Shown here piece by piece: positions 4,099-58,884 of a stretch of 63,083 nt of DNA. Positions within the stretch are counted from its first letter, which is position 1, and each line of letters opens with the position of its first letter. The position numbers and the translations under genes were made by a program. A model generated the notes under the pieces. The model did no database searches, was not told the origin of the DNA, and saw only the letters and a program-made list of their open reading frames with translations. Where the stretch lies: IMG/VR virus record IMGVR_UViG_3300024302_000009, positions 1-63,083 of that record, one strand, 5' to 3'. Source of the stretch: a virus.

Positions 4099-4127
4099 TT
4101 GACATAAGGTGCTAGACAAGCGATAAT
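4099..4127 (+). promoter_or_regulatory. Early promoter (TTGACATAAG class) of the 327-aa gene
   Basis: TTGACA at 4099-4104 followed by TAAG, 17-nt spacing, GATAAT at 4122-4127. It is one of six promoters sharing the TTGACATAAG start. It lies 80 nt upstream of the ATG at 4208. Confidence 0.75.
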
Positions 4128-5405: not shown

Positions 5406-5437
5406 TTGACATAAGCAACTACTTGTAGTAGTATATA
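5406..5437 (+). promoter_or_regulatory. Early promoter, TTGACATAAG class
   Basis: TTGACA at 5406-5411 followed by TAAG. The -10 is TAGTAT (5429-5434, 17-nt spacing) or the overlapping TATATA (5432-5437). It leads the operon starting at 5465. Confidence 0.75.
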
Positions 5438-6923: not shown

Positions 6924-7100
6924 ATGGAAAATTCACGCAACTGGAAATACTGGATGGGCCACAAGGAGTGGTTCCTCCACCGTCAGCTCAAAAACATTGA
7001 GATGCAGGAAATTGCCCTGACAGCGAAGAAGGCAGCAATCAAGCTGGCTGTAAGCAAAAAGAGGGAAACACCTGTAGTAGAGTCCATGTGGTTGACTTGA
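6924..7100 (+). CDS. Hypothetical 58-aa basic helical protein
   Basis: ATG 6924 after AAAAAGGAAAAGAA. The product (MENSRNWKYWMGHKEWFLHR...) is Trp- and Lys-rich and helical. Its stop codon overlaps the -35 box of the next promoter (TTGACA at 7097). Two TACGGTC heptamers lie just upstream (6892, 6901). Confidence 0.72.
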   Translation: MENSRNWKYWMGHKEWFLHRQLKNIEMQEIALTAKKAAIKLAVSKKRETPVVESMWLT

Positions 7101-7125
7101 CATAAGTGTGTCATAATGGTACAAT
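7097..7125 (+). promoter_or_regulatory. Early promoter, TTGACATAAG class
   Basis: TTGACA 7097-7102 followed by TAAG, 17-nt spacing, TACAAT 7120-7125. The -35 overlaps the stop codon of the preceding gene. Leads the operon at 7165-8239. Confidence 0.8.
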
Positions 7126-7961: not shown

Positions 7962-8239
7962 TGGTTAACCTAGCCCGTCGTAAGACCAGAACTGTATCCG
8001 CAAATGGTCGGGAGGAGAGTGATGACTGGACACCTGTCTACCTTGATGTGCCCCATGAGGAGGCTGTAGAGGTATTCACCAAGGCTCTCGGCTTGCTGCA
8101 TGACATTGAGTTTGTGCGTAACAACTACAAGAAGGAGAAAATGGCTGACCTTATATTCGATGTAGGTGTGCACATTGATCGTGTGACTAACGAGAATGGT
8201 GGGCTTACCTTCATGAAACTTCAACGAGGTTTGACATAA
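7961..8239 (+). CDS. Hypothetical 92-aa protein
   Basis: TGATG coupling to the phosphoesterase. N-terminus basic (VNLARRKTRTVSANGR), the rest helical and charged. Its last codons (Leu-Thr-stop, TTG ACA TAA) are also the -35 region of the next promoter. No family recognised. Confidence 0.75.
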   Translation: MVNLARRKTRTVSANGREESDDWTPVYLDVPHEEAVEVFTKALGLLHDIEFVRNNYKKEKMADLIFDVGVHIDRVTNENGGLTFMKLQRGLT

Positions 8240-8259
8240 GCGTTGTATTGTAGTATACT
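8231..8259 (+). promoter_or_regulatory. Early promoter, TTGACATAAG class
   Basis: TTGACA 8231-8236 followed by TAAG, 17-nt spacing, TATACT 8254-8259, then ACAATAAGGAGA, a leader with ribosome site shared with the cassettes at 9435 and 9794. Drives the operon from 8283. Confidence 0.85.
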
Positions 8260-8282: not shown

Positions 8283-8495
8283 ATGAAAATTACCCCGGTA
8301 ATTGGTATGGAAGTATATTACAACCATACTGGCATACATAAAAAAGTAGTTAGTATAGATGAAAGGGTGCGTTTCAGAGACTTACGTTATCCCCATCGCA
8401 CTTCAAATGCATTCCATAGCGAGTTTTCTACAAGTAATTACACCCTTATTAACAGAACCCCACGACAAAAGATAGAAGCAATGCTCATGAAATAG
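8283..8495 (+). CDS. Constant-tail family protein 1, 70 aa
   Basis: First of eight small proteins sharing a C-terminal tail; here TPRQKIEAMLMK. The N-terminal part (PVIGMEVYYNHTGIHKKVVSI...) fits a short SH3/KOW-like beta barrel, though it lacks the usual GD step of its paralogues. ATG 8283 follows AAGGAGAAAGAA of the promoter cassette. Function unknown; the shared tail suggests a common partner. Confidence 0.8.
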   Translation: MKITPVIGMEVYYNHTGIHKKVVSIDERVRFRDLRYPHRTSNAFHSEFSTSNYTLINRTPRQKIEAMLMK

Positions 8496-8504
8496 GAGAG
8501 AGAC

Positions 8505-8801
8505 ATGAAATATTTTGTAATCCTAGCAATACTGTTAGGTTATTCATCCCAAGCCAATGCACAAGTAGTGTGTGGCGATAGAAAAGTATACATAGAGACA
8601 CTCAAGGCCACGCACAAAGAGGTTACCACATCTATGGGCCTCAACAGCAACGGTAATGTAATTGAAGTGTTGGTGTCCCCTACTGGTAGCTGGACACTGT
8701 TGTCCACTTCCCCCAAGGGTAAATCTTGTGTGCTTATGTATGGTGAGGCGTGGATGAATATGCCTAAGCAAAATATTTCAGGCCCCTCAATAGAAGGATA
8801 A
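8505..8801 (+). CDS. Secreted periplasmic protein, 98 aa
   Basis: Sec signal MKYFVILAILLGYSSQANAQ with cleavage after ANA near residue 19. The mature part of about 79 aa has two Cys (VCGD and KSCVL) likely to form a disulfide. AGGAGAGAGAC ribosome site. Unknown family; an envelope-acting early protein, for example in superinfection exclusion, would fit a signal-bearing early gene, but this is inference. Confidence 0.8.
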   Translation: MKYFVILAILLGYSSQANAQVVCGDRKVYIETLKATHKEVTTSMGLNSNGNVIEVLVSPTGSWTLLSTSPKGKSCVLMYGEAWMNMPKQNISGPSIEG

Positions 8802-8983: not shown

Positions 8984-9223
8984 ATGTACTACATCACAAT
9001 CACACCAAAGAGTTTCTATCAGTTGGATGAAACTATCTCATACGCCACGGAGATTTTGGCAAAGGACTTAGGACCACATGTTGAGTGGGCTATTGAGTTC
9101 GCCAAGTCCCGTGATACTGAAGAGATACAGCATACTGTCTCTGTGCATAAGCATGTGGCTAAGGTACCACACATTGTTACGGTCGGAAATCTCACCATCG
9201 AAACTGGTTGTGAGGACTTCTAA
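8984..9223 (+). CDS. Hypothetical 79-aa protein
   Basis: Start chosen at ATG 8984 (MYYITITPKSF), preceded by GAAGGATAAGATA; an upstream in-frame ATG lies inside the previous gene without a ribosome site. Soluble alpha/beta protein, no family. Coupled to the next gene by TAATG. Confidence 0.75.
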   Translation: MYYITITPKSFYQLDETISYATEILAKDLGPHVEWAIEFAKSRDTEEIQHTVSVHKHVAKVPHIVTVGNLTIETGCEDF

Positions 9224-9438
9224 TGCGATGTAAGACAGGAGATAAGGTGTACGTGCACCCGGATAATGAATGGGGTGTGTACACTGAAGGGAAAGTGTAC
9301 ATTGTAGAGTATGTAGGGGACAATGGTAATTGTGACATAGTAGATGACAGGGGAACTGATCTGTGGATCAATAAGCGACATGTAACTCCTGCCCTCACAA
9401 CTCCCCGAGAGAAGATTGAGGCTATGCTATTGGCTTGA
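9223..9438 (+). CDS. Constant-tail family protein 2, 71 aa
   Basis: KOW/SH3-like N-terminus (CKTGDKVYVHPDNEWGVYTE) with the G-D-x-V step, then the tail TPREKIEAMLLA. Coupled start TAATG. The stop codon lies within the next promoter's -35 (TTGACA at 9435). Function unknown; compare the paralogues at 8283, 9558, 14292, 15384, 15604, 15842 and 16892. Confidence 0.82.
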   Translation: MRCKTGDKVYVHPDNEWGVYTEGKVYIVEYVGDNGNCDIVDDRGTDLWINKRHVTPALTTPREKIEAMLLA

Positions 9439-9463
9439 CATAAGCCTTTAGGTAGTGTATACT
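9435..9463 (+). promoter_or_regulatory. Early promoter, TTGACATAAG class
   Basis: TTGACA 9435-9440 followed by TAAG, 17-nt spacing, TATACT 9458-9463, then the shared leader ACAATAAGGAGA. Confidence 0.85.
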
Positions 9464-9486
9464 GTAAGAACAATAAGGAGAGAGAC

Positions 9487-9561
9487 ATGAGCAGCTTAAC
9501 AGGTGACGAGTTCTGGGATAACATCTCAAAGCGTGATCCCTTCAAGGGGAGAAAGAAATGA
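9487..9561 (+). CDS. 24-aa leader-like peptide
   Basis: ATG 9487 directly after AAGGAGAGAGAC; the frame MSSLTGDEFWDNISKRDPFK... ends at 9561 and overlaps the next ATG (ATGA). Excellent ribosome site and coupling argue that it is translated, perhaps mainly to load ribosomes on the next gene. No known homologue recognised. Confidence 0.5.
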   Translation: MSSLTGDEFWDNISKRDPFKGRKK

Positions 9562-9797
9562 AGTACGAAGTAGGTGATCTGGTACTTATCCCTAAGGATG
9601 TAACAGAGGAGTATGAATACCATGCTTTCACAGAGGGTGATCCGTATGAGGTAACGGAAATCTATACGGCTAACAATGGCATTATGTACCTGTATGTGAA
9701 TGATGATAGTGGAGACAACTGGGAGCTTGGCTTCGACGAGGTTAACCCCTACGAAAAGACTGCCCGACAGAAGATCGAAGCTATGCTACTCGCTTGA
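9558..9797 (+). CDS. Constant-tail family protein 3, 79 aa
   Basis: N-terminal YEVGDLVLIPKDVTEEYEYH followed by further beta strands as in SH3/KOW folds, then tail TARQKIEAMLLA. GGGGAGAAAGAA ribosome site. Its stop codon is inside the -35 box of the promoter preceding the tRNA-like cluster. Confidence 0.82.
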   Translation: MKYEVGDLVLIPKDVTEEYEYHAFTEGDPYEVTEIYTANNGIMYLYVNDDSGDNWELGFDEVNPYEKTARQKIEAMLLA

Positions 9798-9822
9798 CAT
9801 AAGAAGCTGGTTAGTGTATAAT
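9794..9822 (+). promoter_or_regulatory. Promoter of the tRNA-like cluster, TTGACATAAG class
   Basis: TTGACA 9794-9799 followed by TAAG, 17-nt spacing, perfect TATAAT 9817-9822. Transcription should start about 20 nt before the first tRNA-like element. The leader keeps the ACAATAAGGA ribosome-site sequence of the other cassettes although RNA, not protein, follows. Confidence 0.85.
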
Positions 9823-9848: not shown

Positions 9849-9926
9849 GTTCCGTTCGTCTAGATGGTCTAGGACGCTGGTAGCTTGCTACTTGAAACGC
9901 TGGTTCAAATCCAGCACGGAACCCCA
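9849..9926 (+). tRNA. tRNA-like element 1, Glu-type D arm, abnormal anticodon arm
   Basis: The acceptor stem GTTCCGT pairs fully with ACGGAAC, followed by a C discriminator and encoded CCA. The D arm GTCTAGATGGTCTAGGAC closely resembles that of bacterial tRNA-Glu. The T arm is GCTGG-TTCAAAT-CCAGC. The sequence where the anticodon arm should be (CTGGTAGCTTGCTACTTG) pairs with itself almost to the centre, leaving no standard 7-nt loop. No anticodon can be assigned with confidence. Confidence 0.65.
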
Positions 9927-9928
9927 AT

Positions 9929-10043
9929 ATAGCCACTCGTCTAAGGGTAAAGACACTGGGTGGAGGGTGTACGCTTCTATAGGGCCACTGCACGCTTGTA
10001 TAACACACAGAGATATCTGGTTCAACTCCAGAAGGTTATTCCA
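9929..10043 (+). tRNA. tRNA-like element 2, large insertion in the anticodon arm
   Basis: Acceptor ATAGCCA/AGGTTAT (one mismatch, one G-U), T discriminator and encoded CCA. D arm GTCT-AAGGGTAA-AGAC and T arm TCTGG-TTCAACT-CCAGA are intact. The region between them is about 60 nt instead of about 23. CTGGGTG may pair with CACACAG, closing a loop of some 40 nt. An intron, a structured insert or a non-decoding RNA are the options. Confidence 0.55.
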
Positions 10044-10048
10044 ATTAT

Positions 10049-10127
10049 GTTTCCATCGTCTAGTTGGTTAGGACGCTCATCTGTAAAACGGAGAGAAACA
10101 CTGGTTCAAGTCCAGTTGGAAACCCCA
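10049..10127 (+). tRNA. tRNA-like element 3, Glu-type D arm, enlarged anticodon loop
   Basis: Perfect acceptor stem GTTTCCA/TGGAAAC, C discriminator, encoded CCA. D arm GTCTAGTTGGTTAGGAC, T arm ACTGG-TTCAAGT-CCAGT. The anticodon arm is about 20 nt, with a weak stem CTCAT/GAGAG and a roughly 10-nt loop containing CTGTAAA. Forcing a standard loop there would give GTA (Tyr) but with an unpaired stem, so identity is left open. Confidence 0.6.
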
Positions 10128-10129
10128 AT

Positions 10130-10223
10130 GTTCCTGTCGTCTAGATGGTCTAGGACGCTGATGAGATTGCCTCAATGTTGGTCCTTATCAGAAACACTGG
10201 TTCAAATCCAGTCAGGAACCCCA
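10130..10223 (+). tRNA. tRNA-like element 4, 24-nt anticodon loop
   Basis: Perfect acceptor GTTCCTG/CAGGAAC, C discriminator, encoded CCA. D arm is identical to element 1 (GTCTAGATGGTCTAGGAC); T arm ACTGG-TTCAAAT-CCAGT. A perfect 5-bp anticodon-type stem CTGAT/ATCAG closes a 24-nt loop instead of 7. The elbow contacts (GG in the D loop, TTC in the T loop) are kept, so the L-shape should form without normal decoding. Confidence 0.62.
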
Positions 10224-10486: not shown

Positions 10487-10771
10487 ATGAGCAATAACTT
10501 TATCAACGTGAGTAAGGGTAGTAAGAGTAATCATGTCCAGCGTAAGGATGTGAAGTTTGGCGAACTGTTTCGCGCCAAAGGCAAAGAGATGGATGGTGCT
10601 ACATACGCCCATATGGGTGTGCGTACTGACCCTCCTACCTCCGGCCCTGAGGCATGGCAGTCGATCAACATCGACTCTGGTGAGGCAGCGTCTTCCCCTA
10701 ATGGGGATAAGGGCGTAGTCATCGTGGGTGGTTTCACTATTGAAGCTGCTATCCACGAAGACTTCTCTTGA
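10487..10771 (+). CDS. Hypothetical 94-aa protein
   Basis: ATG 10487 with AGGGAGTACTCC. Basic N-terminus (NVSKGSKSNHVQRKDVKFG) then a Gly/Ser/Pro-rich middle and a hydrophobic VVIVGGFTIEAAI strand. No family recognised. Last gene before the hairpin at 10788. Confidence 0.7.
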   Translation: MSNNFINVSKGSKSNHVQRKDVKFGELFRAKGKEMDGATYAHMGVRTDPPTSGPEAWQSINIDSGEAASSPNGDKGVVIVGGFTIEAAIHEDFS

Positions 10772-10972: not shown

Positions 10973-12634
10973 ATGCGCGGATACTTTACCAACTCAACTG
11001 GGGCCAAGACTAAGGTCCAACTGCGTGAGCTGATTACTGGTTGGTCAGAGGATGCAGACACAGGCGAAAAGGAGTTTGCTGAGCATTACGATAAGTTCTA
11101 CAGTGATGAGGGTATCCTTACTGCTGCTCGGTTGATGCGCCACTTTAGTGAGAGGGCAGTCAGGTTAACTGGTGCTATTGCTAATCACTGTGGTTATGCA
11201 GAGAAACACACCTACCTTGAGTGGGGTGAAGGTGTCCCAATGATGCCGTTGTCCTACGTCGTGGTCAACAAGGGTGTTGTTTCGGTCAGAGTACATGAGG
11301 AGATTAAAATCCCTGTGCCTAGTGCCAATAACACTCTCCGCAACGTGTGGTGGTGCTCTGGTACAGATAACCTGAATATCATGGCTACCATCATTGAGGC
11401 TGACAAAGGTAACCCCCGCAACAAGAAGTGGGAGACACCTGCTCGCGCTATCGCTAACATGAAGCGAACCAAAGATTACACTATGGCTAAGTTCATGAAC
11501 AAGTTTACCCTAGTGGGTAATATGTATACTGCATCACAAATGCGTGATGTAGCAGACAACATCGCGGAGGAGTTCCTTCCTGTAGAGGTCAAGGAAGCTC
11601 TAACGCTACAAGACTGGATTGATATGTACGAGCTGAGTAAGCAGTCTTGTATGGTGTCACGTAGTGAGCACGCTGGTCAGTGGAGTGGTGACTTCCTCAG
11701 TCAAGTACAGAAGGGCGTACCTGTTGAAAAGGTGATGCACCCTGTCGTGTGGTACTTCTACAATCCTGATGTACGGGGCTTTTATGTACGAAAGAGAGAT
11801 AGTGTCACCACACGTTGTATTGTCATCAACGATGATGTATTCAACTACAAGATGTACTCCTCCGGTGAGGTAGATGGTCGTGCCCTGCGTGCATACTTTC
11901 AAGAGCAGGGGTGGGAGCAGATGGAAGAAGATGACATGGTTGAATGCGGTACTGCATCCTTCACTATACCAGCATATAAAAAGGATAACGGAGAAAAGGT
12001 CTGTCCTTTCCCCTACGTTGACTCCATTAATATGTACTGGAATGTGGAATACCTTGAAGATACTGATGAGTACAGGTGGTCCCAAGCAATGGAAGACACA
12101 CGCCCTGTACCTAAGGTACGCAGCCAAACCTATGCAGGGTTCATAACCCACAATCATATCACTGGTGCACAGTGTGTGCGTTGTGGCGGGGATTGTGGTA
12201 GGTACGCTGTGCTAACTAACGATAACTCCAACTACTGCTGTGATGAGTGTGCAGAGAATGACGGGTATGGTCGTGCAAAACGGTCAGACCACTCAACTAT
12301 CTGGATAGCTCGGGAAATGGCTTTCCTTGATGATGTTCATGGTGATATGTTCACCAACAGAGAAGCCTGTATCTCTTGTGGCGGTTTACCTCACTACAAG
12401 GGGCACACCTATGAGACGGAAGAAGAATACCCGTTGACTGTTCACGGTTACCAGAACATCACTCACGGTGACATGGCAATGACAATCACGCGGAGCACCT
12501 ATAGGTTCCTAACAGAAAAAGGCCAAATAAAAGAAGGTGTACTCACTCTCGGCAAGGCAATCGCCCCTCCCAACATCAATGTAACACGGGGCATGAACAG
12601 ATTTAATCGTGCAACAAGTCAATTTGAAAAGTAA
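10973..12634 (+). CDS. 553-aa protein with two Cys-rich zinc-type motifs
   Basis: ATG 10973 follows AAGGAGAAAGAC. The N-terminal about 380 aa match no family I know. The C-terminal part has a treble-clef-like cluster (CVRCGGDCGRYAVL... then CCDECAEN) and a second C-x2-C-GG (CISCGGLPHYKGH), which probably bind zinc. Large conserved-looking genes between the small-gene block and the replication genes are often involved in DNA or RNA metabolism. No catalytic motif could be assigned. Confidence 0.85.
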   Translation: MRGYFTNSTGAKTKVQLRELITGWSEDADTGEKEFAEHYDKFYSDEGILTAARLMRHFSERAVRLTGAIANHCGYAEKHTYLEWGEGVPMMPLSYVVVNKGVVSVRVHEEIKIPVPSANNTLRNVWWCSGTDNLNIMATIIEADKGNPRNKKWETPARAIANMKRTKDYTMAKFMNKFTLVGNMYTASQMRDVADNIAEEFLPVEVKEALTLQDWIDMYELSKQSCMVSRSEHAGQWSGDFLSQVQKGVPVEKVMHPVVWYFYNPDVRGFYVRKRDSVTTRCIVINDDVFNYKMYSSGEVDGRALRAYFQEQGWEQMEEDDMVECGTASFTIPAYKKDNGEKVCPFPYVDSINMYWNVEYLEDTDEYRWSQAMEDTRPVPKVRSQTYAGFITHNHITGAQCVRCGGDCGRYAVLTNDNSNYCCDECAENDGYGRAKRSDHSTIWIAREMAFLDDVHGDMFTNREACISCGGLPHYKGHTYETEEEYPLTVHGYQNITHGDMAMTITRSTYRFLTEKGQIKEGVLTLGKAIAPPNINVTRGMNRFNRATSQFEK

Positions 12635-12643
12635 GGTGGAATA

Positions 12644-14287
12644 ATGTCAAAAGGACCAATCAATAAGAAAGTGGTGACTAATCTTCCTGTCAAGGTTGAT
12701 CCCCACAAACGAGTTAAGAAGGGGGACATTGATCCTGTACTTCATGCTCTCCTTCGTCTGGCTACACCTATGGGGTCAGAGAAGGTCATTGTGGGTATCA
12801 TCAATGCTGTCTGTGCTAAACTATCTATTGAGACTACTCTCGATGAGAAGGGTAATCTACGTGCGGTTGTGGGAGAGGGGTCCAAGACTATCTTTAGTTC
12901 CCATATGGACACTGTGCATGACGCTTTTGGTGCATTACGTCTGTATCAATACACGGGGGACAAGAAGAAGGGGATCATCTTTGCTAAGCAGAACAACAAG
13001 AAATGTGTGCTTGGTGCTGATGACAAGGTGGGTGTGTGGCTTATGCTCAAGCTTATGGAGGCTGGTACACCGGGGCTGTACATCTTCCATATGGGGGAGG
13101 AGCAAGGTCGCGTAGGCTCTAAGTATATCGCTGCCTCTACACCTGAGATATTGGAAGGGTACGAGCGTGCTATTGCGTTTGATAGGGCAGGATACTTGGA
13201 CATTGTGGACACACAAATATCCGGTGAATGTTGCTCTGATACGTTTGTAGAGGCTCTGTCAACTCAACTAGACGCTGGTCTGGATGACAAGTACCCTGAT
13301 AGGGCTACTACCTCAGGCTTTACTGGGGCTACAGGTTCCTATACGGACACCGCCTCTTACATGAAACTCATCCCTGAATGTACCAATATCTCTGTGGGCT
13401 ATGACAACCAGCACACATCTGAGGAGATATTCGATTGGCCGTGGCTCAACGAGACGCTGCTGCCTATCCTGCTCAAAGTTAAGTGGGAAGACCTTCCAAC
13501 GGTCAGAGATCACACGGCAGTTCCTGTCTACACTAATAGCTACCGGAGTGGTGGTTATGGGAATTATGGTGGCTACAGCGGCTATGGCATGGGCGCAGAC
13601 CCTTGGTATGAGGATGATGACTTCTGGAAGGGCAATAGCCAGAACGACACTATCCGCAATGTGTCTTTGTATGAGAAGGATATCCCACGTACATATGACT
13701 CCACGGCTACATGGGTACTAGGGGAGGATTTACCCACTAACATCTACATGGCTACACGTATCATTGAGAAATGGACGTATAAGAAGGGAGATATCCTTGT
13801 TGATGAGGTCAAGACAGCTAACAAGACCATTGAAGAACTCAAGGACTTGGTGAACACTGCATACTATCTGTTCTCTAACATTGAGAGCTTGAAGATACTT
13901 GAGGATGGGGATGACAGGGCTAAGATGGTTCAAGGGGATATTGACGACTGGTATCAGGATATGTACACTACTGGTGTGTATGCAGGAGAGCTTGTGGATG
14001 ATGATAGCGAGGAACCTGCGGAGGAAAAAGATGAGCCGGGGCGTCCACCGGGACCAGCAGACAACATGACCTTTGATAGTAACCTGTTTAAGCTGACACA
14101 AGCGAATGAGGAGGCTACAGGAGGATACAATGAGATCACCATTGTTAACAGTGCTGGTGTCAAATACTCTCACTCTGCCTTGAAAGAAAAACGCAAGGGG
14201 GACACTCTGTACTACAACATGAGTGGTTATCGTCTGCCTTATATGTTCTACACCATCAAAGGTGATGAGAATTTCCTGAAAGGTTAG
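12644..14287 (+). CDS. M20/M28/M42-like zinc peptidase fused to a Gly/Tyr-rich linker and extra domain
   Basis: Residues about 30-290 carry the two-zinc aminopeptidase pattern in order: H-x-D-T (SSHMDTVH, H87/D89), bridging Asp (LGADDKVG, D126), catalytic Glu pair (HMGEEQGR, E152/E153), Asp (IAFDRAGYLD, D180) and late His (YDNQHTSEE, H257). A Gly/Tyr-rich linker (SGGYGNYGGYSGYGMG) follows near residue 305, then about 230 aa of unknown fold with an acidic stretch (DDDSEEPAEEKDEPGRPP). The complete metal set argues for an active hydrolase. Relatives remove N-terminal residues or deacylate amino-acid conjugates; the substrate here is unknown. Starts 9 bp after the 553-aa gene. Confidence 0.82.
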   Translation: MSKGPINKKVVTNLPVKVDPHKRVKKGDIDPVLHALLRLATPMGSEKVIVGIINAVCAKLSIETTLDEKGNLRAVVGEGSKTIFSSHMDTVHDAFGALRLYQYTGDKKKGIIFAKQNNKKCVLGADDKVGVWLMLKLMEAGTPGLYIFHMGEEQGRVGSKYIAASTPEILEGYERAIAFDRAGYLDIVDTQISGECCSDTFVEALSTQLDAGLDDKYPDRATTSGFTGATGSYTDTASYMKLIPECTNISVGYDNQHTSEEIFDWPWLNETLLPILLKVKWEDLPTVRDHTAVPVYTNSYRSGGYGNYGGYSGYGMGADPWYEDDDFWKGNSQNDTIRNVSLYEKDIPRTYDSTATWVLGEDLPTNIYMATRIIEKWTYKKGDILVDEVKTANKTIEELKDLVNTAYYLFSNIESLKILEDGDDRAKMVQGDIDDWYQDMYTTGVYAGELVDDDSEEPAEEKDEPGRPPGPADNMTFDSNLFKLTQANEEATGGYNEITIVNSAGVKYSHSALKEKRKGDTLYYNMSGYRLPYMFYTIKGDENFLKG

Positions 14288-14291
14288 TGAT

Positions 14292-14585
14292 ATGGAAAGA
14301 GATGTTAGACTAGGTGATAAGGTTAGGTGCTGGACAGATACCTCCTCAGTGCGAATAGGTACTGTGTGTCGCTTAACTGTCGCTGGCTGCGACCTTAAGG
14401 CTCAGGGCTATGACTTCATCATGAGTGGTGTGGAGAATAACAGAGGGCACCCCCTAAACCACGATGAAAGAGATATTTATGATTTGCCCTACGGGGATGA
14501 CTACTGGTATGGGGCGTTTAAAGACTGTGATGCACCAATTAAACTGACAGCTAGACAAAAGATTGAAAGGATGTTACATGCTTAA
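14292..14585 (+). CDS. Constant-tail family protein 4, 97 aa
   Basis: Longest member. N-terminal VRLGDKVRCWTDTSSVRIGT is KOW/SH3-like; the middle has a Tyr/Asp-rich insertion; tail TARQKIERMLHA. The codons for the tail's ERM (GAAAGGATG) act as ribosome site for the GluRS-like gene, whose ATG at 14578 lies within this gene's last codons. Confidence 0.82.
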   Translation: MERDVRLGDKVRCWTDTSSVRIGTVCRLTVAGCDLKAQGYDFIMSGVENNRGHPLNHDERDIYDLPYGDDYWYGAFKDCDAPIKLTARQKIERMLHA

Positions 14586-15387
14586 CACACGTATTGCTCC
14601 ATCACCTACAGGTGACATGCACCTTGGAACAGCACGCACTGCATACTTTAACTGGCTTGCTGCACGGGCCACCGGAGGTAAATTCATTCTACGGATTGAT
14701 GATACCGACTTGGAACGCAGCAAGCCAGAACACACTGAAGTAATCCTTGAGACAATGGAATGGCTCGGGCTGGACTATGATGAAATCCATTACCAGAGTA
14801 AGCGTCAAGATAGGTACGAAGATATTGTGCGTATGTTTAAACATAGTGATAAAGGGTTTATTGATGATGGGTGTTTGCGACTGACTGCGCCCTTTGAGGA
14901 GGACAATCATCTAGTGATGATGAAATCAGACGGCTCCCCTACATATCACTTTGCCTCTGTGCTGGATGATATTGACATGGATACTAACTACATCATTCGT
15001 GGCAATGATCATGAACTCAACCTTCCTAAACACCAGCACATCCATAACCAAATTGTAGGTAATCTAGGGCCAGCGTTCCCTGACGTACAGCATGTAAGCC
15101 TTATCACCAAGGGCGGCAAGAAGATGTCCAAGCGTGATGATGCTGCATCTATGCTGTGGTATCGTGACCAAGGGTATAGTCCTGAGGCTGTGCTAAACTT
15201 CATGTTACGGTTGGGATGGTCACCAGATCAGGATGACAAGTCCAACGCTATCATCACAAGAGACAAGGCTGTAGAGATGTTCTTCGATGGGGGACACTTT
15301 ATCAAGGCTAAGCTGTCCGGCTATGACCAGAACAAGCTGGATTGGTTCAACAAGAAGTACAAGGCTATGGAGAGGATGGCGGCATGA
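14578..15387 (+). CDS. Minimal glutamyl-tRNA-synthetase-like protein, catalytic domain only
   Basis: Class I aminoacyl-tRNA synthetase of the GluRS/GlnRS type. Signature start RIAPSPTGDMHLGTAR (residues 5-20; HLGT is the HIGH motif), LRIDDTDLERS (39-48), FASVLDDIDM, IIRGNDHELNLP (ligand-binding region) and KKMSKRD (181-187, KMSKS motif). At 269 aa it lacks the roughly 170-200 aa anticodon-binding C-terminus of a normal GluRS (about 470 aa) and has no Cys4 zinc site. GluQ-RS also lacks that domain, but its KMSKS is usually altered and it has a zinc site, so this looks more like a cut-down GluRS. Start chosen at ATG 14578 over an upstream in-frame one because of GAAAGGATG spacing. It may charge the tRNA-like elements at 9849-10223. 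Confidence 0.9.
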   Translation: MLNTRIAPSPTGDMHLGTARTAYFNWLAARATGGKFILRIDDTDLERSKPEHTEVILETMEWLGLDYDEIHYQSKRQDRYEDIVRMFKHSDKGFIDDGCLRLTAPFEEDNHLVMMKSDGSPTYHFASVLDDIDMDTNYIIRGNDHELNLPKHQHIHNQIVGNLGPAFPDVQHVSLITKGGKKMSKRDDAASMLWYRDQGYSPEAVLNFMLRLGWSPDQDDKSNAIITRDKAVEMFFDGGHFIKAKLSGYDQNKLDWFNKKYKAMERMAA

Positions 15388-15611
15388 CGTATTGTTTTCA
15401 ACCGGGGGACAGAGTTAGGGTCAAGTACAACAATGATAGCAGCGCAGCAGATCACCCCGCAGGTAGTATCAGAATAGTAGATAAGTCGGAAACAACAAGA
15501 AGCGGGCTTACCACCTTTAGGGGGAATTACCATTATGGTATATGGGCTGAAAAATTAGAGTTGTGTGTCCCCACCGCCAGAGAGAAAATAGAAAGGATGC
15601 TCCATGAGTGA
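15384..15611 (+). CDS. Constant-tail family protein 5, 75 aa
   Basis: ATG 15384 overlaps the GluRS-like stop (ATGA) and has GAGAGGATGGCGGC upstream, so it is preferred to an upstream in-frame start. N-terminal CFQPGDRVRVKYNNDSSAAD (KOW/SH3-like), tail TAREKIERMLHE. Overlaps the next family member by 8 bp. Confidence 0.82.
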   Translation: MTYCFQPGDRVRVKYNNDSSAADHPAGSIRIVDKSETTRSGLTTFRGNYHYGIWAEKLELCVPTAREKIERMLHE

Positions 15612-15849
15612 AATTAACGGAGGAAACAACTTCAAGGTAGGGGATATGGTGTATATTCCGGGCCATAGTATATTTGGGGAGCCTAGCAAAGTCCTAGAGA
15701 TAGGGGAACCTACGTTTCGTGACGCTGACTACACTTATGTCATGGCCCTTGAAGGTATTTATGACAATACCCGCACTATTGTACCTAATGGGTTTCACCT
15801 GTATGCTATGACACCTCGTCAGAAGATAGAGAGGATGCTCCATGCTTAA
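15604..15849 (+). CDS. Constant-tail family protein 6, 81 aa
   Basis: N-terminal FKVGDMVYIPGHSIFGEPSK then repeated beta strands, tail TPRQKIERMLHA. Starts inside the tail codons of protein 5 (ATGAGTGA) and has protein 7 overlapping its own end: three tandem members in a row, consistent with recent duplication. Confidence 0.83.
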   Translation: MSEINGGNNFKVGDMVYIPGHSIFGEPSKVLEIGEPTFRDADYTYVMALEGIYDNTRTIVPNGFHLYAMTPRQKIERMLHA

Positions 15850-16087
15850 CGGAGGAAACAAATTCAAAGTTGGTGATATAGTGTCGTATGCACCCAAACT
15901 TGACGACGATTATGATAAAAATCAAAACTTAAAAGTAGTTAGTGTGCAAGAGTTAGGTTTTCATCAGGATAGCTGTACGTATACAATATGCCTAGAAGGG
16001 ATGGGAGGTACAAAGTATCTACCTAGCTATTACAAACTAGAACCTATGACAGCTCGACAGAAGATTGAGGCCATGTTACATGAGTGA
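15842..16087 (+). CDS. Constant-tail family protein 7, 81 aa
   Basis: Opens MLNGGNKFKVGDIVSYAPKL, like protein 6 (INGGNNFKVGDMV), so these two are the closest paralogues. Tail TARQKIEAMLHE. Its tail codons supply ribosome site and start for the primase gene. Confidence 0.83.
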   Translation: MLNGGNKFKVGDIVSYAPKLDDDYDKNQNLKVVSVQELGFHQDSCTYTICLEGMGGTKYLPSYYKLEPMTARQKIEAMLHE

Positions 16088-16895
16088 TATCAAGGAATAT
16101 ATAGACTCCATCGACCTTGACATGGACGTAGTACACAGGACGGATTGCCCTGAATGTGGTGGTGGTAACACCTTTACGGTCACCAAGACGCTCGATGGAA
16201 CAGTATGGAACTGCTATTCAGCGACCTGTAGTGTAGTAGGCGGTACTTCGGATGTGCGCTTAAGCAGTGAGGAGCTAGAGATGTTCCTCCAGAGAGGGGA
16301 TGTCAGGACCCCTTCTCTGTTCCAGATACCTGATATATGGGTACCAGCACGACAATCCAAGAAGACTATGGACTACCTTAAGGTGAATAACTGTCTGGAC
16401 GCCTATGAGGAAGACAGAGCAGACATCATGTATGACCCTGTATTGGACCGCCATGTCTTTGTAAGCTGGTCTGAGGGCATCTGTAAGGGTGCGGTAGGTA
16501 GACTAGCTGGAGGCTCCAGTGCCCCTAAGTGGTGGGTCTACAGCCTAGCAAACACCCATCCATTAGTTATCCCCCAATATGGGGTAGCTGGCTTCCCCGA
16601 GTATCCTAATCCCAAGGTAGGGGTGCTGGTGGAGGATGCAGCGTCTGCTTGTGCTGTGAGTTGTGAAGCTGACGGAATTGCATTGATGGGTACAAATCTG
16701 AACCCCTACTATGTACCTGTCATAAAAGAGTACGATAGTATTATTATTGCCCTAGACCCTGATGCGCACAACAAGGGCATTGACATGCAGCTAGAGGTAT
16801 CCATGTACACCAATGCGAAGGTTGCTACCATCACGGATGACCTTAAATACATGCAACCTGATCAAATTAGATGGGAAATAGGAGATTTAGTATGA
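16080..16895 (+). CDS. DNA primase, DnaG/T7 gp4A-like
   Basis: Start ATG 16080 (MSDIKEYIDS) inside the tail codons of the upstream gene. An N-terminal zinc-ribbon (DCPECGGGNTF ... WNCYSATC) recognises primer-start sites in this family. A TOPRIM-like core follows (VGVLVEDAASACAVS with the metal-binding Glu/Asp, then IIIALDPDAHNKG). The 271-aa length matches a primase domain without fused helicase; the helicase is separate at 18425. Makes RNA primers for lagging-strand synthesis by the DNA polymerase at 20726. Confidence 0.88.
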   Translation: MSDIKEYIDSIDLDMDVVHRTDCPECGGGNTFTVTKTLDGTVWNCYSATCSVVGGTSDVRLSSEELEMFLQRGDVRTPSLFQIPDIWVPARQSKKTMDYLKVNNCLDAYEEDRADIMYDPVLDRHVFVSWSEGICKGAVGRLAGGSSAPKWWVYSLANTHPLVIPQYGVAGFPEYPNPKVGVLVEDAASACAVSCEADGIALMGTNLNPYYVPVIKEYDSIIIALDPDAHNKGIDMQLEVSMYTNAKVATITDDLKYMQPDQIRWEIGDLV

Positions 16896-17122
16896 TTAAC
16901 AGACATAGATTTAAGGTGGGGGACAAGGTGAAGCGTAAAAAGCACGATTACCCTGCTGGTTACTACAATGGCACATACACAGTGTGTGAGACATTCGGTT
17001 CACATGGTATCAGGTTAATTAATAATACCAATAAGCGCAAACTATATAACGGATACTACGCATGGGATGTGACACAAGTATTGTCCGCCCGAGAGAAAAT
17101 AGAAAGGATGCTACATGCCTAG
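16892..17122 (+). CDS. Constant-tail family protein 8, 76 aa
   Basis: ATG 16892 overlaps the primase stop (ATGA) with AGGAGATTTAGT upstream. N-terminal FKVGDKVKRKKHDYPAGYYN is the clearest KOW-like start of the family; tail SAREKIERMLHA. Last member of the set. Confidence 0.83.
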   Translation: MINRHRFKVGDKVKRKKHDYPAGYYNGTYTVCETFGSHGIRLINNTNKRKLYNGYYAWDVTQVLSAREKIERMLHA

Positions 17123-56136: not shown

Positions 56137-58884
56137 TTAATATCCAAACACAGGGTCTGCCATTTGTGGGGCATTCGCTGTGGAACTGAAGTATTCAGCT
56201 TCAACTATGTATCTTGCAGGTACTGCAAGTCGGCTAGTAACTCCGTAACGTAGAGCATCGTACAGGTGATCCTCTGGGAACTTGGTGTCTACATCTTCTG
56301 GGTTGTTCTTATCCAGAGGAAGCATTGGTAAGATACGAAGAAGATTATCACAAGCTGTGCTAATTCGTAATCTTGGTAACTCGGTTACTGGATCAATAGA
56401 GAACATCTTGTGGAGGGCCACTTTACCATTTACACGGCTGCCGGGACCCTTGTCAGCTTTAATCCACCTGACACCTAAATTGATCATCTCTTCAGCTATA
56501 GAAGGACCTCTCTGTCCTCTCATAGCCCATGTCTCATTATCCAAGATACCTAGTATGCCCGGAGGCTCTTCGGCTTCAATCTCATGGATTTTCTCTGCTA
56601 GAGCAACTCCATCCAGACCCTTCTGGTATAACTCTCTGTAAGCGTACACTGTACCATCGTAATCAACTGCAAACCAGATAACTGCGGCAGGAGCCGAATA
56701 ACCATAGTCACAAGCTCTAAACCTCGGCCAGTCCGCAGGAGGTACAAACTGTTCTACTGCGTGTATTGACTTATCGAACTCTGGAAAGGCACTGGAGTCT
56801 GATATGTCCCAGTCACCCTCTAAGAGCCTCTTACGCTGTACTGTGGACATAGACGCCAAGTTAGCCATGTACTCTGGAGACTGCATCAAGTAAGGGTTGT
56901 CAGTAAGCCTTGCAGGTATGAACCTGCGTCTGATAGCTTTCTTATTCCTTAGCTCTTCTGGTACAAACTCTGAGTCTGGGAACCTTAGTATCTCTCCCGT
57001 TTCAATGTCTCTGCCCCAGAAAGGCTCTCCCCAAGGAGCAGGATCAATGAACATCTTCTTAACCCACCATGCCCCAATCTGTCCGGGATTAGTGGTAGCA
57101 CGCATGTATGGTGTAATCTCTGGATCAGTAGTACGTAAACGAGAACGAAGTGTGTCCCATACGTAAGGTGTGGCAAACAGTGTTAACTCATCCACACCAA
57201 TCCAAGAGTACGATTGTCCAATGTAACGGCCTACGTCAGCATCTGCATCACAGAAACCAAACAGTAGAGTTGCACCTGATGGGAACTTCCATCTGTTTTC
57301 CCCTTTGTTATACTTAGCGCCGGGGAAGGCTTTAGGGTACAGCTCCATGGACAGATCAATCAGTTCCATAAGCTCAGGCATTGACTTACGAATAAGTAGC
57401 GCCCTGTGTGCTGGCCTGTGCATGTACCTCAGAGGGTCCATGAGCATCCCGTAGGAATTATGCGTTACTATATAATTGTCCGTTATATATAATCCATCTT
57501 CTGATGCTAGTGTGACACATTTAGCCTCTTCACGGTGACTATAACTTATAGAAACTATTCTGTTTTTTAAGTGTTTCTTTACTTTACACCTTGCCTTCTT
57601 CCTACTTAAATTAAATATGGAAGCAGCGTCTCTAAGCCGTATGTAAACAGTGTACGCTGTGTACCCTTCGTGAACTACGTTACCACATCTATAATGAGTA
57701 CTCTTCCACGTTATAGTAGCTGTTCCCCCTAAACCTCTAACTAGCTCTGCTACGTCTTCAGCCAGTGTAAAGCTTATTGAGGTGTAATACACCTTACTAT
57801 CTTTGGATGCGTAGCCATCTGTATCCATAAGCCCTTGTAATAAACATATTCTATCTTGTGTATTCGCTTTTTTATAGTTTTCAGGTATAAACTTTGTTAG
57901 AGAATTTGTACCTAGTAGCTTTAAATCCCGCAGAGCTTGTGTCTGTCCTAGCACACCCCACGCGTATTTACTTGATCTCTTAGTGACTACTACACCATCT
58001 TGGCGTATGCGATTTACAATCTCTTCATCAGCAGAGCTTAAACCTACAGAGTCTGTAGTTATACTGCCATCTCCGAGTAATGCACCTAATGTGTAAGGTG
58101 GCACTACAAGATTTGTAGACACTCCAAAATCAAACTGCTGTATTAAAGGAACTAACGCCCAGCGCGGTCGTTTTTTACTGTACTGCTTATCTGTATAATC
58201 TTGTAAACTTTTAGTGTCTCTAACCTTAGGTAATATAGAACTACTATTACCCGCAATAGTGTACTCCCACAAATGATCTCCTGTACATTCTACATTGGAG
58301 CCATCTTGAAATGTTACAAGATATATGTCTTGTGTTCCTTGTGGGTGTTCTTGTACAACCTTAGTGGTAGTTCCGTCTGGAGAATATACAATATCTCCTA
58401 CTCCCACCTCACCTATAGTTTTAAACCCTTCAGGAGTAAGTATTTTTGCGGATAATGGCTGTGCCTTGCCGCCACCAGCACTGCCTCCGTAGAGTATCTC
58501 TTTCTCAGGGGCAGCTAGGAAGTCTGTTTGAGGTCCCGGATTGGGTTGGAAGATGACTGTTCGGCCATCATCTAAAACATTCTGGAACGTCTGTCCTGCC
58601 GTGTCGATTGTGTCTTGGGTGATAACCTTTCCCTTTTTCTTAGGGGGATTGGTCATCACCCGGACAATCTCATTAGCAGCTTTAGCCTTGGCTTTTGCGG
58701 CTACCGCATTTTCCTCGGCCTTATCCTCTGCCTTTTGCTTACGTCTGGCTTTGGCTTCTTTTGCCCTGTGTGCCTTAGTGAGCTTAGCGTTTCTCTCTTT
58801 CTCAAGCTGCCTAGCTTTACGCTTGGCCTTTTCTGTTGAGGAGAGCTGATATCTACGCTTTGGCTTTGGAGTCTCGTCAGTCAT
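56137..58884 (-). CDS. terL: Terminase large subunit interrupted by an intein
   Basis: 915-aa precursor: 336-aa intein plus 579-aa TerL, the normal size. The N-terminal Lys/Ala-rich extension is basic. The Walker A motif is split: GGSAGGGK, intein, then S-YGMLM. Walker B is YSWIGVDELTLF. The C-terminal RNase-H-like nuclease has acidic residues at RACDYGYSAP, LGILDNETW and EDHLYDALRYGV. It packages DNA into the prohead together with TerS (59897) and portal. Splicing must occur before ATP can bind, so packaging depends on intein removal. Confidence 0.95.
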   Translation of the reverse strand: MTDETPKPKRRYQLSSTEKAKRKARQLEKERNAKLTKAHRAKEAKARRKQKAEDKAEENAVAAKAKAKAANEIVRVMTNPPKKKGKVITQDTIDTAGQTFQNVLDDGRTVIFQPNPGPQTDFLAAPEKEILYGGSAGGGKAQPLSAKILTPEGFKTIGEVGVGDIVYSPDGTTTKVVQEHPQGTQDIYLVTFQDGSNVECTGDHLWEYTIAGNSSSILPKVRDTKSLQDYTDKQYSKKRPRWALVPLIQQFDFGVSTNLVVPPYTLGALLGDGSITTDSVGLSSADEEIVNRIRQDGVVVTKRSSKYAWGVLGQTQALRDLKLLGTNSLTKFIPENYKKANTQDRICLLQGLMDTDGYASKDSKVYYTSISFTLAEDVAELVRGLGGTATITWKSTHYRCGNVVHEGYTAYTVYIRLRDAASIFNLSRKKARCKVKKHLKNRIVSISYSHREEAKCVTLASEDGLYITDNYIVTHNSYGMLMDPLRYMHRPAHRALLIRKSMPELMELIDLSMELYPKAFPGAKYNKGENRWKFPSGATLLFGFCDADADVGRYIGQSYSWIGVDELTLFATPYVWDTLRSRLRTTDPEITPYMRATTNPGQIGAWWVKKMFIDPAPWGEPFWGRDIETGEILRFPDSEFVPEELRNKKAIRRRFIPARLTDNPYLMQSPEYMANLASMSTVQRKRLLEGDWDISDSSAFPEFDKSIHAVEQFVPPADWPRFRACDYGYSAPAAVIWFAVDYDGTVYAYRELYQKGLDGVALAEKIHEIEAEEPPGILGILDNETWAMRGQRGPSIAEEMINLGVRWIKADKGPGSRVNGKVALHKMFSIDPVTELPRLRISTACDNLLRILPMLPLDKNNPEDVDTKFPEDHLYDALRYGVTSRLAVPARYIVEAEYFSSTANAPQMADPVFGY
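57457..58464 (-). mobile_element. Class 3 intein with LAGLIDADG (DOD) endonuclease in TerL
   Basis: 336 aa from Ala1 (AQPLSAKILTPEGF) to His-Asn336, next residue Ser. Block B is TGDHLWEY (Thr61, His64, Trp66); block F has Cys316 (AKCVTLASEDG); block G is NYIVTHN with Thr334. Ala1 plus the W/C/T triplet defines a class 3 intein, which splices via the internal Cys. Two DOD motifs, LGALLGDGSI and LLQGLMDTDGYAS, indicate an active homing endonuclease. The DNA is AT-richer than the exteins. Insertion exactly in the ATP-binding loop is a classic conserved site. Confidence 0.93.

Follow-up and report, generated by a model that had tools for sequence, protein, structure and literature searches.

The window, meaning the whole 63,083-nt stretch of DNA analysed here, is a 63-kb IMG/VR virus record (IMGVR_UViG_3300024302_000009). 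It comes from a bacterial virus of marine type, and its portal protein and DNA polymerase point to an HMO-2011-like podovirus. The portal protein shares at most 50% identity with those of phages of Pelagibacter, Roseobacter, and SAR116. The close HMO-2011-like phages that were tested all lack tRNA genes above the Rfam cut-off; the relatives that have them are only the more distant phages of Vibrio, Aeromonas, and Pseudoalteromonas. The RNA cluster at 9849-10223 has no matching phage record. Together with a gene for a short glutamyl-tRNA synthetase (mini-GluRS), this cluster occupies a single early-type gene region on a common strand.

9794-9822, plus strand: sigma-70-type promoter, TTGACA-17-TATAAT, 12/12 consensus matches, top hit in 13 kb
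9849-9926, plus strand: element 1, tRNA(Glu)-like and anticodon-less, 78 nt, cloverleaf as minimum free energy (MFE) fold, 7/7 acceptor pairs
9929-10043, plus strand: element 2, diverged tRNA-like RNA, 115 nt, with a D-like arm, a 5-bp T arm with a TTCAACT loop, and CCA
10049-10127, plus strand: element 3, tRNA(Glu)-like with a closed, bulged anticodon arm, 79 nt, Rfam tRNA score 45.4 bits
10130-10223, plus strand: element 4, tRNA(Glu)-like with an extended anticodon arm, 94 nt, Rfam tRNA score 44.2 bits
10248-10454, plus strand: 68-aa ORF directly 3' of the RNA cluster, no family match
10487-10771, plus strand: 94-aa ORF, no family match
10973-12634, plus strand: ORF for a 553-aa orphan protein with Cys-rich stretches
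12644-14287, plus strand: 547-aa metallopeptidase-like protein (PHROG 4191 peptidase)
14578-15387, plus strand: mini-GluRS, 269 aa, class I GluRS catalytic part (Pfam tRNA-synt_1c, E 1.5e-58)

The consensus promoter would drive the tRNA-like cluster, with a predicted start about 20 nt before element 1. Other near-consensus sigma-70 promoters (10-11 of 12 matches) lie at 9435-9463, 4099-4127, 7097-7125, 8231-8259, and 5406-5434, at least one of them directly 3' of a small tail-bearing ORF (9223-9438). Judged by sequence, these promoters appear to mark an early region transcribed by the host polymerase. PADLOC returned no match. The 553-aa protein has no match in Pfam, PHROGs, NCBIfam, PADLOC, PDB, or phage records, and its single-sequence AlphaFold model reaches a pLDDT of 31, too low for use.

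All four elements, tightly packed as the preliminary description had stated and separated by spacers of 2, 5, and 2 nt, proved to be real. T arms and encoded CCA ends are present, and elements 1, 3, and 4 carry the Glu-type D arm attributed to them. Paired acceptor stems had been claimed for the whole set. This holds for elements 1, 3, and 4, where 21/21 pairs are Watson-Crick (GTTCCGT/ACGGAAC, GTTTCCA/TGGAAAC, and GTTCCTG/CAGGAAC), and fails for element 2, in which pair 7 is mismatched and one pair is G-T. Between elements 1, 3, and 4, double compensatory changes occur at acceptor pairs 4, 6, and 7 and at T-stem pair 49-65. Because the stems are fully Watson-Crick yet differ by such double changes, selection on structure is indicated rather than recent copying. 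The MFE folds of these three elements are cloverleaves (z = -2.28, -2.0, and -3.44 against dinucleotide shuffles), and each combines a 7-bp acceptor stem, D arm, T arm, and CCA. The Rfam tRNA model placed elements 3 and 4 above its gathering score of 29, and the compensatory pairs and Rfam scores rule out a chance origin. Element 2 shows the cloverleaf features only in part and folds no better than its dinucleotide shuffles (z 0.0). Its D arm is preceded by an additional nucleotide and contains U13-A22 where the others have U13-G22; it is the weaker, more diverged member of the cluster. ARAGORN labelled element 1 "Thr", element 3 "Tyr", and element 4 "???", and missed element 2; the Thr and Tyr labels are wrong because the arms were mis-registered, the bodies being of Glu type.

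The anticodon region is where all four depart from ordinary tRNAs. A normal arm with 5 bp and 7 nt occurs in 0/4 elements, as does a 7-nt loop with the U34 U35 C36 of bacterial tRNA-Glu. The arm of element 1 is self-complementary, as first described, with a 4-nt loop (GGTAG[CTTG]CTACT), and the roughly 40 extra nucleotides of element 2 were likewise found. For element 3, the loop of about 10 nt proposed earlier gives way to a bulged hairpin, CTC-A-TCTGT[AAA]ACGGA-GAG, that closes to 3-5 nt; a linear reading with the loop CTGTAAA pairs only 3/5 of the stem. Element 4 has the perfect stem reported, but its supposed open loop of 24 nt is partly paired, the arm CTGATGAG...CTTATCAG forming 8 bp plus an inner GCC/GGT. 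Folded alone, the arms of elements 3 (p 0.019) and 4 (p 0.007) are better than shuffles, that of element 1 weakly so (0.088), and that of element 2 is not. Closed hairpins, different from copy to copy, take the place of the loop. The preliminary description had named an alternative fold with ordinary anticodon loops as evidence against its reading; for elements 1, 2, and 4, none was found. Its view of these RNAs as tRNA-like but probably not decoding is well supported.

Outside the anticodon, the strong determinants of bacterial tRNA-Glu are U11-A24, the triple U13-G22:A46, and the absence of nucleotide 47, while G1-C72 and U2-A71 are weak determinants and position 73 is free (PMC9976931). Elements 1, 3, and 4 contain all of these non-anticodon determinants, with the variable region AAAC lacking nucleotide 47. 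Since tRNA-Glu makes no demand at position 73, their unusual discriminator, C73, is compatible with Glu identity. Element 2 lacks the U13-G22:A46 triple and does not carry the full set.

The mini-GluRS gene, absent from the preliminary description, was added by a scan of neighbouring genes. Its ORF (14563-15387) lies about 4.3 kb downstream of the RNA cluster on the same strand, and the ATG at 14578 is the likely start, giving 269 aa. The class I signature motifs are intact (HIGH-like PSPTGDMHLG and KMSKR), and the part that follows them is retained. The protein aligns to bacterial GltX (468 residues) at 3-88 and 139-310, and nothing in it matches the C-terminal third of GltX. In T. thermophilus GluRS, the anticodon-binding domain spans residues 323-468 (PMC3927822). 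The viral enzyme thus lacks this entire domain and most of CP1, the acceptor-binding insertion, and no remnant of the domain was detected downstream of the gene. A C-truncated GluRS specific for tRNA-Glu was reportedly described by Dubois et al. in 2009. A GluQ-RS identity was rejected, the protein scoring 253 bits as bacterial GltX against 141 as GluQ-RS in NCBIfam and standing far from YadB in the tree. Its single-sequence AlphaFold model has a pLDDT of 38, likewise too low for use.

A short form of GluRS is also present in the 634-kb phage LR745206. An IMG/VR scan with a two-sequence alignment as query recovered 26 loci, and nearly all of their enzymes have 260-290 aa and the same build, the exceptions being a longer outlier (L375) and two proteins cut by contig ends (L373 and L374). 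The mini enzymes form a single phage-only clade (support 99/99) that is separate from the cellular GluRS, and the nearest 80 cellular homologues are all full length, with at least 438 aa. The window's enzyme is the first to branch off, and the length of its branch makes its exact place less sure. The window, L357, L367, and L369/L370 represent deep-branching lineages that do not belong to the well-supported subclade of LR745206.

Several of these relatives also encode anticodon-less Glu-type RNAs. In L357, one such RNA (9434-9507) lies 450 nt upstream of the mini-GluRS gene. L367 carries two, at 356-453 and 11459-11532, one 690 nt downstream and one 9.5 kb upstream of the gene; their acceptor stems are identical and their arms different. 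In L369/L370, RNAs at 7026, 14628, and 14920 are found 3 kb upstream and 3.8 and 4.1 kb downstream of the gene. Pattern searches of whole records revealed non-canonical Glu-type elements in G000, G062, and G064/G065, and canonical ones only in G047, G058/G059, and LR745206. For comparison, 16/16 Glu-type matches in 34 phage records obtained with a different pattern were canonical by eye, and 2/8 Glu-type elements were flagged in shorter control loci, where L255 is clearly non-canonical and L244 is altered at nucleotide 33 only. The association of mini-GluRS with anticodon-less Glu-type RNAs is suggestive and not proof, given a sample of few independent lineages, related records, and many fragments, and a window picked for having the feature.

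One of these RNAs stands apart in form. The 122-nt Glu-type element at 14628-14749 of L369 contains a second T-arm-like hairpin (GAGGTTCGACTCCTC) in its anticodon region and looks like a tRNA nested within another tRNA.

tRNA bodies without an anticodon recur among phages; having a mini-GluRS dedicated to them is the special case. IMG/VR was scanned with patterns combining enlarged anticodon regions with Glu-type D arms or, as a control, Lys/Ala-type D arms, and only matches with 6 or more acceptor pairs and a complete T stem were kept. After filtering, at least 41 Glu-type elements (elements 1, 3, and 4 among them) and at least 81 control-type elements lacked a canonical anticodon arm, in a list that includes some borderline normal elements such as those with C33 loops. 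A phenomenon specific to Glu is thereby ruled out. The combination of A46 with no nucleotide 47, which had no part in the search pattern, occurred among the matches listed in 32/38 longer Glu-type elements (element 4 included) versus 10/72 control-type ones. Among the matches listed, 38 further phage records have anticodon-less RNAs of Glu type, and none of these records encodes a GluRS or GlnRS, so pairing with the enzyme is not universal.

Some bodies bear elaborate substitutes for the anticodon loop. L217, L238, L240, L247, L268, and others combine Lys/Ala-type D arms with long hairpins in its place, capped by UUCG in L240, L247, and L268. In L058, a solitary Glu-type tRNA-like RNA (8593-8660) extends its anticodon arm into a GCAA-capped hairpin, and its 12.9-kb locus holds no other tRNA gene.

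For the window, we favour the reading that the RNAs of the cluster are tRNA(Glu)-like, do not decode, and are meant as substrates for the virus's own mini-GluRS, the pair acting outside decoding; we put its probability at roughly 0.45. The preference stems mainly from two matching losses, of the anticodon in the RNA and of the anticodon domain in the enzyme. The earlier suggestion of aminoacyl donors outside translation likewise gains strong indirect support from a viral GluRS without an anticodon-binding domain and from the Glu elements kept in elements 1, 3, and 4. The cluster would be transcribed, and the mini-GluRS would charge these three RNAs with glutamate, reading the acceptor stem and D arm. 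Lacking an anticodon, the Glu-RNA could not decode and might instead deliver glutamate or mimic charged Glu-tRNA outside codon reading. Its partner may be a gene neighbour, either the orphan protein or the peptidase, and naming the 553-aa orphan as candidate user of the charged RNA is speculative. L367 encodes a distant relative of the 547-aa peptidase (Pfam M42 glutamyl aminopeptidase) 2.5 kb past its mini-GluRS. A gene set conserved with L367 was rejected, because the window's 553-aa ORF and the 566-aa ORF of L367 share no relationship and only the peptidases are distantly alike. Counting against charging are the shortened CP1, an insertion that normally helps to hold the acceptor arm, the missing Glu triple of element 2, the long branch of the window's enzyme, and the LR745206 subclade, seen with canonical tRNA-Glu genes only. 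On a more tentative level, phages may have evolved a self-contained glutamylation pair that supplies Glu-RNA during infection to a dedicated reaction separate from protein synthesis, with the anticodon half lost in both RNA and protein.

The RNAs might alternatively be decoys, an option also listed in the preliminary description: uncharged tRNA bodies with no anticodon to cleave that occupy host defence enzymes acting on tRNA, GluRS, or enzymes that modify tRNA, with the mini-GluRS unrelated or part of the decoy. Defence systems that target tRNAs are common, and phages counter them with tRNAs of their own (PMC11555353, PMC10264068); Cas12a3 is reported to cut tRNA tails (PMC12851939). Among the matches listed, many phages without a synthetase also have RNAs that lack an anticodon on bodies of Glu type or Lys/Ala type. 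Published phage counter-measures, however, need an intact anticodon arm, as seen with phage tRNA-Tyr, whose rescue from retron-Eco7 is abolished by a changed anticodon or changed stem-loops (PMC11555353). Decoys would also leave unexplained why a phage GluRS in the same region is missing its anticodon-reading domain, and we regard them as unlikely.

Relaxed or decaying tRNA-Glu copies, whose anticodon arms degenerate first once decoding is no longer needed, would account for the worn look of element 2. In comparable elements of other phages, moreover, the anticodon arms are only moderately above shuffles (median p 0.14-0.18) and U33 occurs at random frequency (27% and 25%). Decay should hit all arms, yet three bodies in the window are intact and end in CCA, compensatory changes separate the copies, and the promoter is perfect. 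Acceptor stems of 7/7 pairs also persist in other phages despite anticodon loss, as does A46 without nucleotide 47. This explanation is rather doubtful. It is improbable that the tRNA bodies are stable scaffolds for an antisense or protein-binding sequence in the anticodon position; nearly constant bodies with wholly different arms, both here and in L367, would fit, but complementarity between the arms and the phage genome runs no longer than it does for shuffles. Small introns cut out of the anticodon arm by some activity to yield normal decoding tRNAs, an option raised in the preliminary description and suggested by the perfect stem of element 4 and its 17 nt beyond a 7-nt loop, are very hard to credit: element 1 is of standard length and still lacks an anticodon loop, element 3 has 1-2 extra nucleotides, element 4 reads G32-A33 and so lacks U33, a nucleotide found at random frequency in comparable elements of other phages, the elements have no intron sequence in common, and we know of no bacterial machinery for tRNA introns of 17 or 40 nt.

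Charged tRNA-like RNAs without a decoding anticodon are familiar from tmRNA and plant-virus tRNA-like structures. Unlike these, the window RNAs keep a full cloverleaf including the D arm, have Glu rather than Ala, Val, His, or Tyr identity, and are accompanied by a dedicated truncated synthetase. Bacillus tRNA-Other with LysRS1 and the tRNA-Gly of peptidoglycan synthesis exemplify tRNAs outside translation or with a special synthetase, but anticodon loops and full synthetases are kept there. With bacterial tRNA-Glu and GltX, the viral pair shares the D arm, variable region, acceptor pairs 1-2, and enzyme signature motifs, and differs in its missing anticodon loop, anticodon-binding domain, and most of CP1. 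GluQ-RS (YadB) is likewise a GluRS paralogue of about 300 aa without an anticodon-binding domain, but it acts on queuosine in the tRNA-Asp anticodon, absent from the window RNAs. Phage tRNA arrays and anticodon-loop variants are similarly clustered, phage-encoded, and strongly promoted, whereas their tRNAs keep a decoding anticodon (PMC10264068, PMC11555353). Non-decoding uses of tRNA and GluRS paralogues free of the anticodon domain are thus already known separately. In the open-access literature searched, which misses most subscription journals, we found no description of anticodon-less phage tRNA-like RNAs, of mini-GluRS, or of a dedicated pair.

If the charging model is true, viruses use beyond decoding a tRNA/synthetase pair cut down to acceptor and D arms with a matching catalytic core. 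Such a pair has the form proposed for the primordial GluRS. With elements 1, 3, and 4 and the mini-GluRS, both substrate and enzyme are at hand for direct testing. The tRNA-finding programs in standard use give this widespread class of phage tRNA-like RNAs wrong labels (Thr, Tyr) or overlook it.

Elsewhere in the window, eight small ORFs of 70-97 aa (8283-8495, 9223-9438, 9558-9797, 14292-14585, 15342-15611, 15604-15849, 15842-16087, and 16871-17122) have a C-terminal tail, [TS]xR[QE]KIExML, in common. Their bodies are divergent, most begin with a KVGD-like start, and the tail is conserved as protein, because the codons differ. Two of these tail-bearing ORFs flank the mini-GluRS gene. The gene for the terminase large subunit (915 aa, 56137-58884, minus strand) is split by a stretch that matches LAGLIDADG homing endonucleases and is probably an intein.
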